Shown: positions 21,271 to 28,853 of the stretch, one piece after another
Position numbering within the stretch: position 1 is the first letter of the stretch
How the letters are laid out: the number at the start of each line of letters is the position of its first letter
Assembly (NCBI RefSeq): GCF_025264665.1
Contig: NZ_CP073697.1
Span: 2,170,001-2,234,000, forward strand
Reading direction: 5' to 3'
Length of the DNA: 64,000 nucleotides
DNA from: Edaphobacter flagellatus
GTDB lineage: Bacteria; Acidobacteriota; Terriglobia; Terriglobales; Acidobacteriaceae
The notes under the pieces: generated by a model
What the model saw: only the letters and a program-made list of their open reading frames with translations
What the model was told of the DNA's origin: nothing
Database searches by the model: none
Translations under genes and position numbers: made by a program

Positions 21271-22545
21271 CTATACGATACGCGTGTGCTCGAATCCGCC
21301 AGCCGTCAGCGCGGCGAGCAGCTCCTGGACCTGTTCACGTCCGCGTGTTTCGAGCGTAATGTCGATTGTCGTGTTGCCGAGGTTCACGCCGTAGTAGGCG
21401 CGATTATAGAGCGTATCGACGATATTGGCGCGGTGCGCGGCGATCAGCTTTGTCAGTTCGGCCAGCGCGCCCGGCTTGTCGAGCAGTGTGATGCGCAGGC
21501 GAATCATACGTCCGTCCTGCACCAGGCCGCGCTCGATGATGCGGCTCAGCAGGGTGACGTCGATGTTGCCTCCGCATACGAGCACGCCAGTCTTCACGTT
21601 GTGGAGCGAGGTCTTCTTCTGTAGAAGAGCAGCAAGCGCGGTTGCGCCCGCGCCCTCGGCCAGCGTCTTCTCACGTTCGAGCAGCATGAGGATGGAGGAG
21701 GCGATCTCGTCCTCATCGACAGTGACGATCTCATCGACGTAACGGTTGACGACGGGGAAGGTCACTTCGCCTGCACGGCGGACGGCAATACCATCGGCGA
21801 TCGTCGTTGCCGGATCAATCGTCACCGGGCCGTGCTGTTCGACGGCAATGGCCATCGAGGGCAGCCGCGACGTCTGCACACCAACAACCTTGATCTTCGG
21901 ATTCGATTCTTTGATCGCGCAGGCAATGCCGCCGATCAGACCGCCGCCGCCGATGGGAACAACGACGGCTTCAAGCCCCGGCACCTGCTCAAGCATCTCC
22001 AGCGCAATCGTTCCCTGACCTGCCATGACGGCGGGGTCATCGAAGGGATGGATGAAGGTCATCTCCTCGGCAGCACAGATGCGGCGCGCCTCTTCGTATG
22101 CCTCGTCGTAGTTGGCGCCGTGCAGCACAACCTCGGCACCAAACCCGCGCGTCGCCGTCACCTTCACCAGCGGCGTCGCCAGCGGCATCACAATCAACGC
22201 GCGGATGCCGCGCTTCGTTGCGTGATATGCAACGCCCTGCGCATGGTTACCAGCGCTCGCAGCAACGACACCGCGTGCTGCCTGCTCCGGCGTCAGCAGG
22301 GCGATGCGGTTCAGCGCGCCACGCTCTTTAAAAGAGCCCGTCATCTGCAGATTTTCAAGTTTCAGGTAAATCTGCTGGCCCGTAATCGAGGAGAGCATCT
22401 GCGAGTGCGCGCATGGTGAATAATAAATCGAACCGCGCAGCCTTTCGCGTGCGGCAACCACGTCGGCCAGGCTGATGCTCACTTCGCTCTTCAACTCTTC
22501 CGTTGCGGGCACTGAAACGTCCTCTCTCCAAAAGCTAAATTTCAA
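21271..22545 (-). CDS. ilvA: threonine ammonia-lyase (threonine dehydratase) with ACT domain
   Basis: This 424-residue PLP enzyme deaminates threonine to 2-oxobutyrate, the entry to isoleucine. The PLP lysine is in MTGSFKERGALNR, the phosphate-binding loop in VVPIGGGGLIGG, and a single C-terminal ACT domain (RLRITLLDKPGALAELTKLIA) fills the last 75 residues, the layout of the shorter TdcB/IlvA class. Its start abuts the tyrA stop with no gap, so it is the last gene of the trpB-trpA-aroQ-aroF-tyrA-ilvA run. Its place in an aromatic operon is unusual and suggests cross-pathway co-expression. Confidence 0.9.
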   Translation of the reverse strand: MKFSFWREDVSVPATEELKSEVSISLADVVAARERLRGSIYYSPCAHSQMLSSITGQQIYLKLENLQMTGSFKERGALNRIALLTPEQAARGVVAASAGNHAQGVAYHATKRGIRALIVMPLATPLVKVTATRGFGAEVVLHGANYDEAYEEARRICAAEEMTFIHPFDDPAVMAGQGTIALEMLEQVPGLEAVVVPIGGGGLIGGIACAIKESNPKIKVVGVQTSRLPSMAIAVEQHGPVTIDPATTIADGIAVRRAGEVTFPVVNRYVDEIVTVDEDEIASSILMLLEREKTLAEGAGATALAALLQKKTSLHNVKTGVLVCGGNIDVTLLSRIIERGLVQDGRMIRLRITLLDKPGALAELTKLIAAHRANIVDTLYNRAYYGVNLGNTTIDITLETRGREQVQELLAALTAGGFEHTRIV

Positions 22546-23409
22546 TCACGAACGACGAACGCGGAACTTGTTCGCCAGATCAAACTCTTCACGCAGGCCC
22601 GGCGTGCGCAGATTCTCACGCACATGCGTCAATCGCTGCTCCAGCGCAAGCAGGGTTTCGGTAATCGGCGTAGTGTTGGTCATCGCAACATCGCGCCACA
22701 TGCTGTAGGGACTTGCGCCCAGACGAGTCGTCTCGCGCAGCGCGCGTCCGCCGATAGCGCCAATCTCCGGTGCATCACCGAACTTCTCTTCAAGCAGCGC
22801 CGCCAGCGCCGTCGAAAGCATCTGCGGCAGATGGCTGACCCATGCGCACATCTCGTCGTGCCGCCTGGGGTCCATATCAAGTGAGCGTGTCCCGAAAAGG
22901 CCGACCCACATGCGCCAGTCCTTTTCGATAGGAGCCATCTCTTCGCTGCACGGCGTGAACAACCACATCGCATTGTTGAAGAGCGTTCCCTCTGCCAGCA
23001 TCGCGCCGCCGGACTCCTTGCCTGCCATCGGATGGCCGGGGAGGAAGATGGCCTTCTGCTGTGGGTCGTCGAAGAGCTTCGCAGCCAGCTCTACAATCTC
23101 AAGCTTCGTACTGCCGACATCTGTAATCAACTGACCTGCGCCGGTGACCGGAGCCAGCTTCTCCATCCAGTCCTTGATAGCAAGTACAGGCACGGCGAGC
23201 ACAATCGCGTCGGCCTGCCGCGCAAGCTCCAGCGCACCCCACTCGTTGCCTGCGGCTCCATCCAGCGCGCCCATCGCCGTTGCTGCACTCAGCTCCAGCG
23301 CGTTCACGTCCCAGCCGTCGATGCGTCCGGCAAATCCTGCTGCACGCAGAGCGAGACCGACCGATGCCCCGATCAGTCCCGTTCCGATGATGAGTACTCG
23401 CTCGATCAC
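22546..23409 (-). CDS. tyrA: prephenate/arogenate dehydrogenase
   Basis: This 287-residue enzyme oxidatively decarboxylates prephenate (or arogenate) in tyrosine synthesis. An NAD(P)-binding GTGLIGASVG motif sits at residues 9-18, followed by ITDVGSTK, the catalytic His region in FLPGHPMAGKESGG and the helical dimerisation domain. It has no fused chorismate mutase or ACT domain, in line with a separate aroQ gene two positions upstream. It starts 11 bases after aroF stops and abuts ilvA. Confidence 0.92.
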   Translation of the reverse strand: MIERVLIIGTGLIGASVGLALRAAGFAGRIDGWDVNALELSAATAMGALDGAAGNEWGALELARQADAIVLAVPVLAIKDWMEKLAPVTGAGQLITDVGSTKLEIVELAAKLFDDPQQKAIFLPGHPMAGKESGGAMLAEGTLFNNAMWLFTPCSEEMAPIEKDWRMWVGLFGTRSLDMDPRRHDEMCAWVSHLPQMLSTALAALLEEKFGDAPEIGAIGGRALRETTRLGASPYSMWRDVAMTNTTPITETLLALEQRLTHVRENLRTPGLREEFDLANKFRVRRS

Positions 23410-23420
23410 GCGTCCCGTCC

Positions 23421-24455
23421 TTACGCTACAACCGGCTCTGCTACCGAACGACCGACCACAGGAGCCAGCTGTCCAAGTTGCTTGACCAGCTTCTCCAATT
23501 GCTCCGGATACATGCTCTGTGCGCCGTCGCTCATCGCCTTCTCCGGATTTGGATGCATCTCCATCAGCAGGCCGTCAGCACCCGCAGCTACAGCAGCCAG
23601 CGCCAGAGCCGGCACGAAGTCGCGAATACCTACGCCATGTGACGGATCGCCCAGCACCGGAAGATGTGTCAGCTTTTTGAGCACCGGAATCGCCGAGATG
23701 TCCATCGTGTTCCGCGTTGCTGTCTCGTACGTGCGGATGCCACGCTCGCATAGCATCAGATCGTAGTTGCCGCCGGAGAGGATGTACTCCGCCGAGAGCA
23801 GAACCTCTTCAATCGTCGCCGAGATACCGCGCTTCAGCAGGCAGGGCTTGCGCACATGGCCAAGCTCACGCAGCAGGTTGAAGTTCTGCATGTTGCGCGC
23901 GCCGATCTGAAAGACATCGATGTAGGGCAGCATCACCTCAATCTGCGAGATCTCCATCACTTCAGTAATGACGAGCAGGCCGGTCTGATCGGCAACCTCG
24001 CGCAGCAGCTTCAGCCCCTCAACACCCATGCCCTGGAAGCTATACGGCGAGCTGCGCGGCTTGTACGCGCCTCCGCGCAAAAACTGGCAACCAGCGGCAG
24101 CGACCTTCTTCGCGCTGTCCAGAATCTGTTCGCGCGATTCCACCGAGCATGGCCCTGCCATAATCACGATCTCGTCACCGCCCACCACAACGCCGTTCGA
24201 GAACTTAATCTTTGTGCCCTCGGGCCGGAAGTTGCGCCCCGCCAGCTTGTACGGCGACGAGATACGATACGCATCGTGCACACCCGGCAGCACCTTGAAC
24301 TCGGCCACATCAAAGTGGTCTGGCGTACCGACGCCCGCCAGGATCGTCTGCGCAGCTCCCGTGGTGCGGTGCACGTTGAATCCGAGCTCCACCATGCGCT
24401 CAATCACGTGTTGAATATTCTCTTCTGTTGCTGTGTCCTGCATCGCTACGATCAT
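23421..24455 (-). CDS. aroF: 3-deoxy-7-phosphoheptulonate synthase (DAHP synthase)
   Basis: This 344-residue enzyme condenses phosphoenolpyruvate and erythrose 4-phosphate, the first step to all aromatic amino acids. It is of the type I-beta class: an N-terminal ferredoxin-like domain of about 75 residues (MIVAMQDTATEENIQHVIERMVELG), then a barrel with MAGPCSVESREQI, FLRGGAYKPRSSPYSFQG, KRGISATIEE and LGDPSHGVG. The N-terminal domain is the known site of allosteric feedback in Thermotoga-type enzymes. It lies between chorismate mutase and tyrA. Confidence 0.93.
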   Translation of the reverse strand: MIVAMQDTATEENIQHVIERMVELGFNVHRTTGAAQTILAGVGTPDHFDVAEFKVLPGVHDAYRISSPYKLAGRNFRPEGTKIKFSNGVVVGGDEIVIMAGPCSVESREQILDSAKKVAAAGCQFLRGGAYKPRSSPYSFQGMGVEGLKLLREVADQTGLLVITEVMEISQIEVMLPYIDVFQIGARNMQNFNLLRELGHVRKPCLLKRGISATIEEVLLSAEYILSGGNYDLMLCERGIRTYETATRNTMDISAIPVLKKLTHLPVLGDPSHGVGIRDFVPALALAAVAAGADGLLMEMHPNPEKAMSDGAQSMYPEQLEKLVKQLGQLAPVVGRSVAEPVVA

Positions 24456-24519: not shown

Positions 24520-24783
24520 TTACTTATCGCGCTTTTGCAAAGCACGCATCACGTCGATAATGCGCTGGTAGATATCGACAATCTCCACGTCGGAGAGCGG
24601 CCCCGGGTTCGAGCGCTGCACATGGTCGAAGACGTTCTTCTCGCGCTGCGGCTCATAGACCGGCAGGTTGGACTGCTGCTTAAGTTCGCCAATGGCGCGT
24701 GCTGCCTCGGCCCGCTGATTGATGAGGCGAACGATCTGCTCATCGAGCTCATCGATCTTGCGTCGCCAGTCAGAGATCTCCAT
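24520..24783 (-). CDS. aroQ: chorismate mutase, AroQ type
   Basis: This 87-residue all-helical enzyme converts chorismate to prephenate. The AroQ pattern is visible: ISDWRRKIDELDEQIVRLINQRAEAARAIGELKQ, with the catalytic Arg and Lys positions, and VYEPQREKNVFDHV in the second helix. ATG 24783 is chosen because GAGG stands nine bases upstream; the ATG at 24798 lies before that ribosome site. It is separate from TyrA and DAHP synthase but directly next to the latter, so a mutase-synthase complex is conceivable. Confidence 0.9.
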   Translation of the reverse strand: MEISDWRRKIDELDEQIVRLINQRAEAARAIGELKQQSNLPVYEPQREKNVFDHVQRSNPGPLSDVEIVDIYQRIIDVMRALQKRDK

Positions 24784-24857
24784 CGGGTGTCCTCGCATTG
24801 CAACAGGGCTTCTCGAAAGCCTATCTGCTGCGGGTTTTGGGTGTACGACTCATGATA

Positions 24858-25000: not shown

Positions 25001-25762
25001 TCATCCTCTTAGCCCCGCGACAAATTTGCCCGCCGCCGCTGCCGCGTCCTGCGGAGCGGTCTTTTCAATCAGCTGCACGATGGCACTGCCGACAACGGCC
25101 GCATCCGCAAACTCGCCCACGGCCCTTACGTGTTCCGCATTCGAAATGCCGAAGCCCACCGCAATCGGCAGCTTCGTGAACTTCTTCAGGCGCGTCACCA
25201 CGTCCCCCGCATCGCCTGTCAGGTGCGACTGCGTGCCGGTGATGCCGGTGCGCGAGATGGCGTAGACGAACCCCTGCGAGTTTTCCGCAATCGCCTTCAA
25301 CCGCTCATCGGGTGACGTGGGTGCAGCGAGAAACACGGGGGCCAGCTTGTTCGCATGCATTGCGTCAAGATATTCGCCCGCCTCTTCGACAATCATGTCG
25401 GTCAGCAGCACACCATCGGCACCAGCCTCAGCCGCCTTCGCGCTGAACGCTTTCATCCCCATCCGCACCACAGGATTCAGATAGCTGAAGAGGATCAACC
25501 CCGCTTGCGGACGCGCCTTGCGAAGCTCCTTTGCAACCCCAAGCACATCTGCCAGCCGCGTGCCCTTCGCCACCGCCCGTTCACTCGCACGTTGAATCAC
25601 CGGGCCATCGGCCAGCGGATCGCTGAACGGCACGCCCAGTTCGATGACGTCGGCTCCGTTGTCGATAGCCGCCAGCGCAATATCGCGCGTCGTCGCAAGA
25701 TTGGGATCACCTGCGGTGAGGTAGATAACGAGGCCGGGCTTCTTTGGAAAATTTATCGGCAT
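25001..25762 (-). CDS. trpA: tryptophan synthase alpha chain
   Basis: This 253-residue barrel enzyme splits indole-3-glycerol phosphate, passing indole to TrpB. The catalytic acids are in IELGVPFSDPLADGPVIQRA (Glu and Asp), with VLLTDMIVEEA and the phosphate-binding VGFGISNAEHV and VVGSAIVQ. It starts two bases after trpB stops, a translationally coupled arrangement. A 217-base gap with a hairpin separates it from aroQ. Confidence 0.95.
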   Translation of the reverse strand: MPINFPKKPGLVIYLTAGDPNLATTRDIALAAIDNGADVIELGVPFSDPLADGPVIQRASERAVAKGTRLADVLGVAKELRKARPQAGLILFSYLNPVVRMGMKAFSAKAAEAGADGVLLTDMIVEEAGEYLDAMHANKLAPVFLAAPTSPDERLKAIAENSQGFVYAISRTGITGTQSHLTGDAGDVVTRLKKFTKLPIAVGFGISNAEHVRAVGEFADAAVVGSAIVQLIEKTAPQDAAAAAGKFVAGLRG

Positions 25763-25764
25763 GA

Positions 25765-27033
25765 CTAGCCCTTCGCCTCCACAGATGCACCACTAACATG
25801 CAACTCTTTCGAAAGAATCCTCATATCCTTATCGCCACGCCCCGACAGATTCACCATCAGCACATCCGTCTTGCGCATCGTGGGAGCCAGCTTGATCGCC
25901 TCTGCCACTGCGTGCGCGCTTTCGAGTGCAGGAAGTATCCCCTCTGTCCGCGCCAGCGTCACGACAGCTTTCAACGCTTCATCGTCCGTCGCCGAGGTGT
26001 ATGTTGCGCGGCCCGAGTCATGCAGCATCGCGTGCTCCGGTCCGACGCTCGCGTAATCGAGCCCCGCGCTTACCGAATGCGTCAGCGCAATCTGCCCCGC
26101 ATCGTCCTGCAACACATAGCTGTACGTTCCCTGCAGTACACCGGGGATGCCGCCACCATCCTTCGCGAAGCGCGCCGCGTGATCGCCCAGCTTCGGCCCG
26201 CGGCCGCCTGCTTCGACACCGATTAATTGCACGTTCGTGTCGTTCAGGAACTCGTAAAACGCGCCGATGGCATTCGAGCCACCGCCGACGCACGCAACGA
26301 TGGCCGTCGGCAGCTTGCCCTCCTGCTCCATGAGCTGCTGCTTCGCCTCTTTGCTGATCACGCGATGGAAGTCGCGCACCATCGTCGGATAAGGATGCGC
26401 ACCCAGCGCCGAGCCCAGGATGTAGAACGTCGTGCGCACATTCGTCACCCAGTCGCGCATCGCCTCAGAAATTGCGTCCTTCAGCGTCGCTGAACCCGCA
26501 CTCACACCGCGCACCTCAGCGCCCAGCAAACGCATGCGGTAAACGTTCAGCTCCTGCCGGCGCATGTCTTCTTCGCCCATGTAGACGACGCATTCCATGC
26601 CCAGCAGCGCGCACACGGTCGCGGTCGCCACACCGTGCTGCCCCGCACCTGTCTCCGCAATAATGCGCTGCTTGCCCATGCGTCGCGCCAGCAAGCCCTG
26701 CCCCAGCGCGTTATTGATCTTGTGTGCTCCGGTGTGCAGCAGGTCTTCGCGCTTCAGATAAATCTTCGCTCCACCCAACTGCTCGCTCAGCCTCTTGGCG
26801 AAGTACAGCGGCGTAGGCCGCCCGCAGTAGTTGTGCAGCAGGTCGGCCAGCTCCGCCTGAAACGCCGCATCGTCTTTGGCCTGGTTGTACGCCGCTTCCA
26901 GCTCTTCGAGCGCGGCCATCAGCGTCTCCGGCACGTACCGCCCGCCATAGACGCCGAACCGCCCCACCGCCGACCGTACAGGTCCAGCCGGACTCACCAT
27001 TGCTGCTACAGTTCCACCAGTCGCTCCGCCCAT
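25765..27033 (-). CDS. trpB: tryptophan synthase beta chain
   Basis: This 422-residue PLP enzyme joins indole with serine to make tryptophan. The PLP lysine is in [18 protein letters not shown], with [11 protein letters not shown] and the phosphate loop [16 protein letters not shown] 27033 is chosen because AGGGAG lies seven bases upstream and because the earlier TTG at 27072 lies inside the stem and U tract of a terminator hairpin. It heads the aromatic operon. The 260 bases upstream hold a leader peptide and terminator, so expression is likely attenuated. Confidence 0.95.
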
Positions 27034-27053: not shown

Positions 27054-27090
27054 CAAAAAACAAAAGCCGCAACCTGTATCGGTCGCGGCT
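27054..27090 (-). terminator. intrinsic terminator (attenuator) ahead of trpB
   Basis: On the minus strand a ten-base stem AGCCGCGACC / GGTTGCGGCT (one G-U pair) with a six-base loop is followed by TTTTGTTTTTT, and the trpB ribosome site begins only about ten bases later. A terminator placed before the first gene and after a leader peptide is the hallmark of attenuation. Confidence 0.85.
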
Positions 27091-27149
27091 CGTGTGGATT
27101 TCGAATCTTGTCTGAACTTCAGCTTACTGAGCTAATCCGTCAGAAGACC

Positions 27150-27224
27150 CTACTCCGCCGATGCCGCTACCGGATACCAGTAGCGGTAAATAAAGCTAAT
27201 AAAGCGGCTGGAGTTCAAGATCAT
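27150..27224 (-). CDS. aromatic leader peptide of the trpB operon (24 residues)
   Basis: The short frame ATG...TAG encodes a peptide whose core reads RFISFIYRYWYP, containing two Phe, three Tyr and one Trp in ten residues, then VAASAE. The codons for Tyr-Trp-Tyr lie in a hairpin CCGCTAC-N-GTAGCGG (about 27165-27187). The intrinsic terminator at 27054-27090 follows 60 bases later. Ribosome stalling at scarce charged aromatic tRNAs would be expected to change folding and let transcription reach trpB. The ribosome site before ATG is weak (GGACAAG). The peptide is too short for gene finders; its composition and position are the evidence. Confidence 0.75.
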   Translation of the reverse strand: MILNSSRFISFIYRYWYPVAASAE

Positions 27225-27296
27225 CTTGTCCACAAGCATACATGCCACCACCACTGGCCGCAACCTGTTTACCCATTTGTTAACGAGCAACGTCAT

Positions 27297-28769
27297 TTAC
27301 GGCTCCAGCACAAACTTCTTGATCGCCACCTTCGCGCCTGCCTTGGCGCGCTCCGGAGCCGTCCTGACCACTACCGTAATCTCGTTGAAATTGATGCCGT
27401 CCATCGCCGCCGGAATGGGGAACTGCAGCTTCTCCTCTGGTTGCTTACCTGAGGCGTTCGGGCGGGATGCAATGGGTAACATGCTCGATGGAATCGTTAC
27501 CGTGCCCAGATAGTGCGGCGCCTGTTCAGGAGCTACGGAGTTCACCCTCTGCTTCGCGGTCGCCTTCGCGTCGGGCAGCTTCTTCACCCATAGCTCCAGC
27601 GCGATCGCTCCTTCCAGCTGGTCGGCGTTCTCCACCACCAGGTCCATTGAGGAGCAGCAGCCGAGGTCCAGCGGATCGGCCAGTTTTTGATGAGCCTCCA
27701 TCAACAGCGGATAACGATCGCTCGAGCGCACTTGCGTCTTCGTCGAGCTGCCCCGCACCACACGCGCCGACGGTCGTGGCTGCTTGTCCGGCGACTTGAA
27801 GTACCAGTACTGCCCGTCGAAGGGAATCTCCATCGGCTCGGAGATCTTCACACCGAAGTGCGGCACCAGCTCGCGCTTTACCGGCGCGACGATCTTCTTC
27901 TGCGACTCGGTAAGCGGCAACAGGATGATGCCAACGTAGCCGTCACTCGACGCGGCATCGCTCTTCGGTGCAGCTGCATCCTTCGCCATCGTCTTCGGCG
28001 TATTCAGGCCAAAGCCGCCAAACGGTGACGCACGCAGAAACGGCAGCAGTGCCATCACCGTAAATACAAACGCGGCGGCGGCGATCCCCGCCTGCTTGCC
28101 GCTCGAAATAAACGCGCGTGGCCCCTCCGCTGGAACCGCTTCCACTACCCTGCGCGCAGCCGCACGCCATGCAATCGCTCCCGCAAAGACTCCCGCAAAA
28201 AGCGACGAGGCGATGAACCACCGGTTCGCCGCCAGCGCAATCGCCCCGTCAAATAGCAGCACCAGCAACAGCGACGGCAGCAGCACACGCACAAGCGGAG
28301 CGCTCTCAAACATAAACGGCGTGCCGGGCTCGCGCCGCACAGCGGCATCCGTTTGAGGAGCGGATTCAAGATCGCACCGCTTCAGGAAGTAGCCGAGGCT
28401 CACCAGGCACAGCACGCTCGCCGCAATCATCAGCAGCGACCACGTCTCCACAAACAACGCCCATGCGGGAACCCACAGTGCCGTCAGACACGCCGCGCGT
28501 ATCGCCGGTGTTGCAAGCTTTGGAGTGCCGGGAAGCAGTCGTACATAAATCGTCCGCACCACGAAGCCGCACACCATGACCGCGGCAAACAGCAGTATGG
28601 TTGCCAGCACCAGCAGACCAAATCGCGGAAGCGTTCCGCGAGGTAACCATGAGACCAGAAAGTCGAGCACCCACGCCGACATCACCACGCCGACAACCAT
28701 TGGCCACAAAGGCATACGCCGTGTGCCGGGTTCGAGATCGAAGCTGCCTTGCAACTCCCCTGCCTGCAT
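27297..28769 (-). CDS. multi-pass membrane protein of unknown function
   Basis: I do not recognise a named family. The 490-residue protein has about seven predicted membrane helices in its first half (MPLWPMVVGVVMSAWVLDFL, FGLLVLATILLFAAVMVCGF, VLLPSLLLVLLFDGAIALA, AGIAAAAFVFTVMALLPFL), then a soluble domain of about 220 residues with predicted beta strands (YVGIILLPLTESQKKIVAPV, GQYWYFKSPDKQP) that may be extracytoplasmic. ATG 28769 follows GAGGAGAG by six bases, so it is preferred to the ATG at 28793. It ends just downstream of the trpB leader region on the same strand, so some read-through into that operon is possible. Confidence 0.65.
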   Translation of the reverse strand: MQAGELQGSFDLEPGTRRMPLWPMVVGVVMSAWVLDFLVSWLPRGTLPRFGLLVLATILLFAAVMVCGFVVRTIYVRLLPGTPKLATPAIRAACLTALWVPAWALFVETWSLLMIAASVLCLVSLGYFLKRCDLESAPQTDAAVRREPGTPFMFESAPLVRVLLPSLLLVLLFDGAIALAANRWFIASSLFAGVFAGAIAWRAAARRVVEAVPAEGPRAFISSGKQAGIAAAAFVFTVMALLPFLRASPFGGFGLNTPKTMAKDAAAPKSDAASSDGYVGIILLPLTESQKKIVAPVKRELVPHFGVKISEPMEIPFDGQYWYFKSPDKQPRPSARVVRGSSTKTQVRSSDRYPLLMEAHQKLADPLDLGCCSSMDLVVENADQLEGAIALELWVKKLPDAKATAKQRVNSVAPEQAPHYLGTVTIPSSMLPIASRPNASGKQPEEKLQFPIPAAMDGINFNEITVVVRTAPERAKAGAKVAIKKFVLEP

Positions 28770-28853
28770 ACGAGGCTCTCCTCGATGATGCAAGCCAGCA
28801 TCGCACGAAACGCGTGCGTTGTGCAGCTTTTCCTGCTGATTATTTTGGTGTGG

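Follow-up and report, generated by a model that had tools for sequence, protein, structure and literature searches.

In the trpL and pheL attenuators of Escherichia coli the leader open reading frame (ORF) follows a Shine-Dalgarno sequence, and the trpL stop codon lies before segment 2 of the leader RNA. Leaders that mix codons for several amino acids are known for the branched-chain amino acids, an example in the accessible text of PMC13236596 being Mycobacterium tuberculosis ilvB1 with its LVVI codons, and a 2010 survey of predicted attenuators associated a function with almost none of those in Acidobacteria (PMC2965389). In our search of the open-access literature, neither a mixed aromatic leader nor the element described here, which lies upstream of trpB in Edaphobacter flagellatus, was found to have been reported. 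We consider it highly probable, from sequence comparison, that this element acts as a ribosome-mediated transcription attenuator, sensing charged tRNA-Phe, tRNA-Tyr and tRNA-Trp jointly through a leaderless or nearly leaderless ORF, and that it belongs to a family regulon in which the codons suit each operon.

The locus occupies the minus strand of a 64,000-nucleotide stretch of the E. flagellatus genome, hereafter the window (Table 1). A sequence-only reading of the window had proposed a 24-residue aromatic peptide just upstream of trpB, a perfect intrinsic terminator and an operon running trpB-trpA-aroQ-aroF-tyrA-ilvA, and these features are borne out. The leader ORF is present and encodes the peptide MILNSSRFISFIYRYWYPVAASAE, and the genes have the identities proposed, aroQ being the chorismate mutase ORF (a 151-aa ORF that overlaps it in another frame is without a family match). 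The terminator stem, GCCGCGACC (27089-27081) with GGTTGCGGC (27074-27066), contains no mismatch and one G.U pair; the U tract TTTTGTTTTTT (27065-27055) directly follows it, and the trpB Shine-Dalgarno sequence GGGAG (27044-27040) and the ATG beginning at 27033 come next. Inside the leader ORF, CCGCTACTGG (27186-27177) pairs with CCGGTAGCGG (27173-27164) to form the 1:2 hairpin, and the full leader is more stable than all of 200 dinucleotide shuffles (z -4.48). The antiterminator, the promoter, the leaderless start and the second genomic copy described below were absent from the earlier reading. Directly upstream of the leader lies a 498-aa ORF (27297-28793, minus strand) with no Pfam or NCBIfam match.

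Table 1. Features of the trpB leader and of the operon that follows it, in window coordinates.
Feature	Position	Strand	Remark
Predicted promoter	27235..27263	-	-35 TTGCGG (27258-27263), 17-nt spacer, -10 TATGCT (27235-27240)
Leader ORF, 24 codons	27150..27224	-	starts about 4 nt into the predicted transcript; no space for a Shine-Dalgarno sequence
Control codons	27177..27194	-	TTT ATT TAC CGC TAC TGG (F I Y R Y W)
Segment 1	27177..27186	-	CCGCTACTGG
Segment 2	27155..27173	-	CCGGTAGCGGCATCGGCGG; partner of 1 or of 3
Segment 3	27081..27097	-	CCACACGAGCCGCGACC; partner of 2 (antiterminator, -24.0 kcal/mol) or of 4
Segment 4 and U tract	27055..27074	-	intrinsic terminator; segment 4 27066-27074, U tract 27055-27065
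trpB	25765..27033	-	TIGR00263
trpA	25001..25762	-	TIGR00262
aroQ, chorismate mutase	24520..24798	-	92-aa ORF; PF01817
aroF, DAHP synthase	23421..24455	-	
tyrA, prephenate dehydrogenase	22546..23409	-	
ilvA, threonine ammonia-lyase	21271..22545	-	final gene of the run

Within the genus 61 of 62 genomes have a match to trpB itself, and within the family 286 of 300; the region upstream of it was read in 125 family genomes (58 of the same genus and 67 others), which are the better trpB matches and not a random sample. The leader is present in 84 of these regions: in the genus in 58 of 58, our own genome counted, and elsewhere in genera g64 (11/11, one with its start masked), g32 (12/12), g67 (1/1), g52 (1/1) and g47 (1/2). 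A scan by pattern and terminator found no leader in the other 41, and a covariance model later located trpB leaders in g66 and g58, where the first samples had shown none, so that absence of the leader is not uniform within a genus. The 85 trpB leaders used in what follows come from 83 genomes (L047 and L048 duplicate G055 and G026); L152, in which hairpin and terminator are present and the start is masked, stands outside this number, and for L205 just 173 bases upstream of trpB are available. Across the 85, an intrinsic terminator lies between the leader ORF and trpB; in L030, L161 and L162 the automatic scan overlooked it and its position was assigned manually, and the U tract of the last two is weak. 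The sequence-only reading had expected peptide codons and terminator to persist together in relatives, and both are conserved. Among 20 trpB neighbourhoods, three of them without a leader, all 20 keep the order trpB-trpA-aroQ-aroF, and 18 have tyrA no more than 11 kb away.

The promoter consensus predicts a transcription start at about 27228, leaving roughly 4 nt ahead of the leader ATG. This spacing is conserved: in 84 of the 85 trpB leaders the end of a TANNNT hexamer falls 7-11 nt upstream of the ATG (exactly 10 nt in 56), and 79 have a TTGNNN a further 16-18 nt up, the background rate being 51 such TANNNT hexamers for 1955 ATGs in the window. A start 7 nt beyond the -10 hexamer would leave a 5' leader of about 0-5 nt, which is too short for a Shine-Dalgarno sequence, and the ORF is predicted on these grounds to be translated from a message with little or no 5' leader. 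Among several in-frame ATGs of one leader, the one whose -10 hexamer sits nearest 10 nt upstream was taken, a potential bias in these counts; without the rule the same start was chosen in 45 of 46 true leaders, and L026 was off by one codon. In the leaders of other genes described below, a TANNNT occurs within 12 nt of the ATG in 28 of 28 aroK leaders, in only 14 of 39 aroF leaders and in only 8 of 14 aroQ leaders. The promoter also disposes of the suggestion that an upstream copy, ACAGGTTGCGGC, competes for the terminator arm. The copy contains the -35 hexamer, the relatives show TTGCAG, TTGCCC and others at that place, and its position upstream of the predicted start means that it would be missing from that transcript.

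Segment 2, when extended through CATCGGCGG, can pair also with segment 3, which consists of the 5' arm of the terminator plus the bases preceding it. Coevolution of the segments was tested by comparing the pairing energy of native segments with that of segments swapped between genomes in 2000 permutations on three sets: 31 trpB representatives (each less than 75% identical), the 60 non-trpB leaders left from 80 after dereplication, and the pooled 91. In the trpB representatives, permutations as good as the native pairing numbered 0/2000 for 1:2, 0/2000 for 3:4 and 7/2000 for 2:3, and in the non-trpB and pooled sets 0/2000 for each of the three. Control pairs gave 925/2000 (1:3), 463/2000 (2:4) and 577/2000 (1:4) in the trpB representatives; for the 60 non-trpB leaders and for all 91, the figures were 1259/2000 and 1198/2000 with 1:3, and 1882/2000 and 1400/2000 with 2:4. 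Kinship should lift the controls as well, and these stay flat, so kinship alone does not explain the coevolution: the mutually exclusive 2:3 antiterminator is backed by covariation. This finding bears on the notion of a constitutive terminator or partial block without sensing, in which the conserved peptide would be a genuine small protein. The leader peptide is indeed conserved genus-wide beyond the control codons (VAASAE), but a plain terminator needs no 2:3 pairing, and 2:3 coevolves while 1:3 and 2:4 do not; we regard that explanation as extremely improbable. Two further structures in the middle region were considered and set aside. A hairpin TCTGA/TTCAGA seems paired within the genus, and the 31 representatives barely beat shuffles at this place (mean z -0.45); a stretch that looked tRNA-like by eye is not conserved among relatives, and ARAGORN detected no tRNA anywhere in the window.

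The strong fold, and the closeness of the terminator end to the trpB ribosome site, could also be accommodated if the element acted on trpB translation or mRNA stability, or bound a protein or ligand, with the short ORF being incidental. We think this very unlikely, since the strand that switches is segment 3 and not the Shine-Dalgarno sequence, and the aromatic codons fall at the predicted stall window defined below. Nor do the Rfam searches speak for it: the window leader gave only a chance-level snoRNA match (E 0.36), four related loci gave nothing at E <= 0.1, and no match was obtained to the leader families (Trp_leader and others) or to the T-box model.

The attenuator reading predicts that control codons should sit where a halted ribosome favours the antiterminator. 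In our stall model the 31 representatives were folded at equilibrium with a ribosome at every codon and only the RNA downstream of it available for pairing; the ribosome edge was assumed to lie 12 nt beyond the start of the A-site codon, and the Trp codon of the hairpin was numbered 0. The mean penalty of the antiterminator relative to the terminator was 8.5-9.5 kcal/mol at codons -5 to 0 and 12-18 kcal/mol elsewhere, which defines a single favourable stall window at the site of the aromatic codon cluster. The aromatic fraction among the representatives is 0.90 at -5, 0.77 at -3, 0.87 at -1 and 0.94 at 0, positions -4 and -2 are aromatic in none of the 31, and codon -7, outside the favourable window, reaches 0.55; taken position by position, the relation between aromatic frequency and energy gap is not significant (18 positions, Spearman -0.40, p 0.10). 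Since the mean penalty is never negative and the equilibrium model prefers the terminator at every stall, the antiterminator must win through the order of synthesis. When segment 4 was omitted from the model, 2:3 formed in some leaders for stalls upstream of the stall window (codons 6-8 of the window leader, and from codon 6 in L160), so that selectivity then depends on 1:2.

Aromatic residues make up 54% of codons -6 to 0 in the representatives, 28% of those before (24 points being Phe) and 6% of those after; the other two reading frames over the same codons have 4% and 14%, versus 54% in frame. The drop past the hairpin pivot, to 5%, argues further against a terminator without sensing. Among the trpB leaders Phe and Trp are present in 85/85 and Tyr in 82/85, which agrees with the mixed Phe, Tyr and Trp leader proposed from sequence alone, and the model places these residues where a stall would favour the antiterminator. 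Of the Tyr-Trp-Tyr codons that this reading placed in the hairpin, Tyr at -1 and Trp at 0 lie in the stall window; the Tyr after Trp, which is R, Y, P, H or others in relatives, sits where stalls cease to favour 2:3 and finds no support as a control codon. The three trpB leaders that do not have Tyr (L048, L144 and L145) read FRTW, or IRTW in L145, and the hairpin of L048, CCGCACC/GGTGCGG, retains its pairing. In four trpB leaders of g32 (L158, L160, L161 and L162) Trp occurs upstream of its usual place (YWRF or FWRF, then RYG or RYR) and position 0 is not Trp. A single Trp codon is all that 61 of the 85 trpB leaders have. These exceptions and the scarcity of Trp codons weigh against the attenuator reading.

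A simpler reading of the same codons would be an attenuator for Trp alone, with stalling at the Trp codon and the Phe and Tyr codons being passengers that the hairpin, or mere chance, has preserved. Trp is more constant than Tyr in the trpB leaders, the Tyr codon TAC at -1 sits within the 1:2 stem, and trp leaders of Corynebacterium and Streptomyces carry double or triple UGG, according to the accessible text of PMC1262725. The aromatic residue at -5, usually Phe, falls outside the stem, however, and Phe is encoded by TTT and TTC alike (58 and 50), and the operon also produces Tyr and shared precursors. Together with the aroQ leaders described next, these observations make a Trp-only attenuator unlikely in our estimate, and we return to joint reading of the three amino acids.

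The covariance model, built from 35 trpB leaders that mostly bear TGG, found only two matches below E 0.1 in our own genome, the window leader (E 2e-24) and a second copy at 1193261-1193397 (plus strand, E 2e-8), and none before trpE-like or pheA genes. The second copy precedes the shikimate kinase gene aroK (PF01202), and its ORF, MSKHLQSGRFSFCYWRTSAAG..., comes after a TAGGCT hexamer; upstream of this locus (L228 1471-2262, own genome 1193231-1194022, plus strand) there are, by eye, a sigma-factor-like and a small anti-sigma-like ORF. Across the order, matches at E <= 0.01 occur in 189 of 384 genomes and 33 of 77 genera; a phylum sample of 396 genomes yields 38 with a match at E <= 0.001, of which 37 belong to the family. 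The lone weak match outside the family (L351, E 6e-4) has no aromatic gene of the query set downstream and was not accepted as a leader. We fetched 90 matches, hand-picked from the match lists and including 51 from one list of 70 places; 85 of them precede trpB, aroK, aroF or aroQ, and the other five each have an E value of at least 7.9e-5.

The codon sets differ with the gene that follows. Trp is present in the control part of 88/88 trpB rows (86 genomes), 28/28 aroK leaders, 29/39 aroF leaders (38 loci, L290 duplicating L278 and L321 being uncounted without a passing ORF) and 0/14 aroQ-first leaders, in a comparison in which the choice of start was also slightly weighted by aromatic residues, a potential bias. 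Phe and Tyr are each present in the control part of all 14 aroQ-first leaders; L317, an aroQ leader, has Trp solely at its far C-terminus. Counted by genus, Trp is found in 8/8 for trpB versus 0/4 for aroQ (Fisher p 0.002), and a TGG-rich model would bias the matches toward Trp-containing leaders and would not conceal Trp. Leaders with only Phe and Tyr codons before aroQ independently support multi-aromatic sensing, and the scaffold there seems to make do with these codons, which is difficult to reconcile with stalling at Trp alone. Of the query genes, aroQ-first operons contain aroQ alone (g55), aroQ-aroF (g50, one contig ending after aroQ) or aroQ with pheA and aroF (g22 and g24, in g24 with aroQ found only at a looser cut-off), and no trpA or trpB occurs in the 0.3-8 kb read at these loci. 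The aroQ-first operons carry a different aroF isozyme, with 38-53% identity to the window aroF, compared with 66-92% for trpBA-linked aroF. In g50 (L357-L362) the DAHP synthase downstream of the aroQ-first leaders is a second isozyme that shares about 50% identity with the trpBA-linked enzyme, which hints that the isozymes are regulated separately. In g55 (L365 141-1647) aroQ with its F/Y-only leader is followed by lpxC.

Starting from what can be read directly, namely conservation, promoter spacing, the coevolution of 1:2, 2:3 and 3:4, codon clustering and the gene set, we infer the start site, leaderless loading and translation, stalling and the direction of the response as follows. Transcription would begin about 4 nt before the leader AUG, and a ribosome would load at once on the nearly leaderless message. 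With all three amino acids in ample supply it would reach the stop codon beyond segment 2 and block 2:3, the 3:4 terminator would form and transcription would end before trpB. If any of the three became scarce, the ribosome would halt in the F-x-[FY]-R-Y-W cluster, masking part or all of segment 1 and leaving most or all of segment 2 open, so that 2:3 could form before segment 4 is made; no terminator would then arise, and trpB-trpA-aroQ-aroF-tyrA would be transcribed. If there were no translation, 1:2 would form and termination would follow. In our own genome the same scaffold would also serve aroK, and in relatives aroF or aroQ, each time with codons fitting the operon. We also think it probable, with less confidence than for the attenuator itself, that a single RNA scaffold constitutes a lineage-wide aromatic regulon of the Acidobacteriaceae, in which a multivalent Phe/Tyr/Trp attenuator with a leaderless ORF stands before trpB, aroK, aroF or aroQ and has been retuned by codon substitution at fixed positions, without Trp in the aroQ-first leaders and with Trp in those of trpB.

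One attenuator of the Acidobacteria thus acquires a concrete proposed function, mechanism and gene set. That one scaffold precedes different branches, in some cases with Trp codons and in others without them, amounts to a natural codon-swap experiment, in which the evolution of control codons is directly testable. Should the leaderless start be true, attenuation would be uncoupled from Shine-Dalgarno initiation and could rely on a simple synchronisation of ribosome and polymerase, the first ribosome loading as the 5' end emerges and the two being coupled from the first nucleotides.

With the E. coli trpL and pheL attenuators the proposed element shares a leader ORF, control codons in segment 1, mutually exclusive 1:2, 2:3 and 3:4 pairings, an intrinsic terminator and an operon of the cognate pathway. 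Unlike them, the E. flagellatus leader mixes Phe, Tyr and Trp codons; its ORF begins about 4 nt into the predicted transcript, its stop codon comes after segment 2, and one scaffold precedes several operons. The actinobacterial trp attenuators are likewise classical attenuators upstream of the trp operon with conserved complementary triples, but their codons are double or triple UGG, and the accessible text describes neither a Phe/Tyr set nor copies before aroK, aroF or aroQ (PMC1262725). In Acholeplasma, the uORFC-13-1 motif upstream of aroF comprises a putative upstream ORF with Phe coding and a terminator (PMC8632094); as presented in the accessible text it belongs to another phylum, has a ribosome site and a U run that codes for one or more Phe, and the likeness is at the level of description. 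The M. tuberculosis ilvB1 leader resembles ours in serving several amino acids of the same pathway, which in that case is branched-chain and not aromatic, and a set of copies that tracks operons is not described in the accessible text (PMC13236596). Finally, mycobacteria have short polycysteine ORFs that are leaderless (Canestrari 2020, as cited by PMC9031893 and PMC13236596) and provide a precedent for a leaderless ORF of control codons before an operon; according to the accessible text of the citing papers these act on downstream translation, with cysteine as the amino acid, whereas the element proposed here would act through an intrinsic terminator and aromatic codons.
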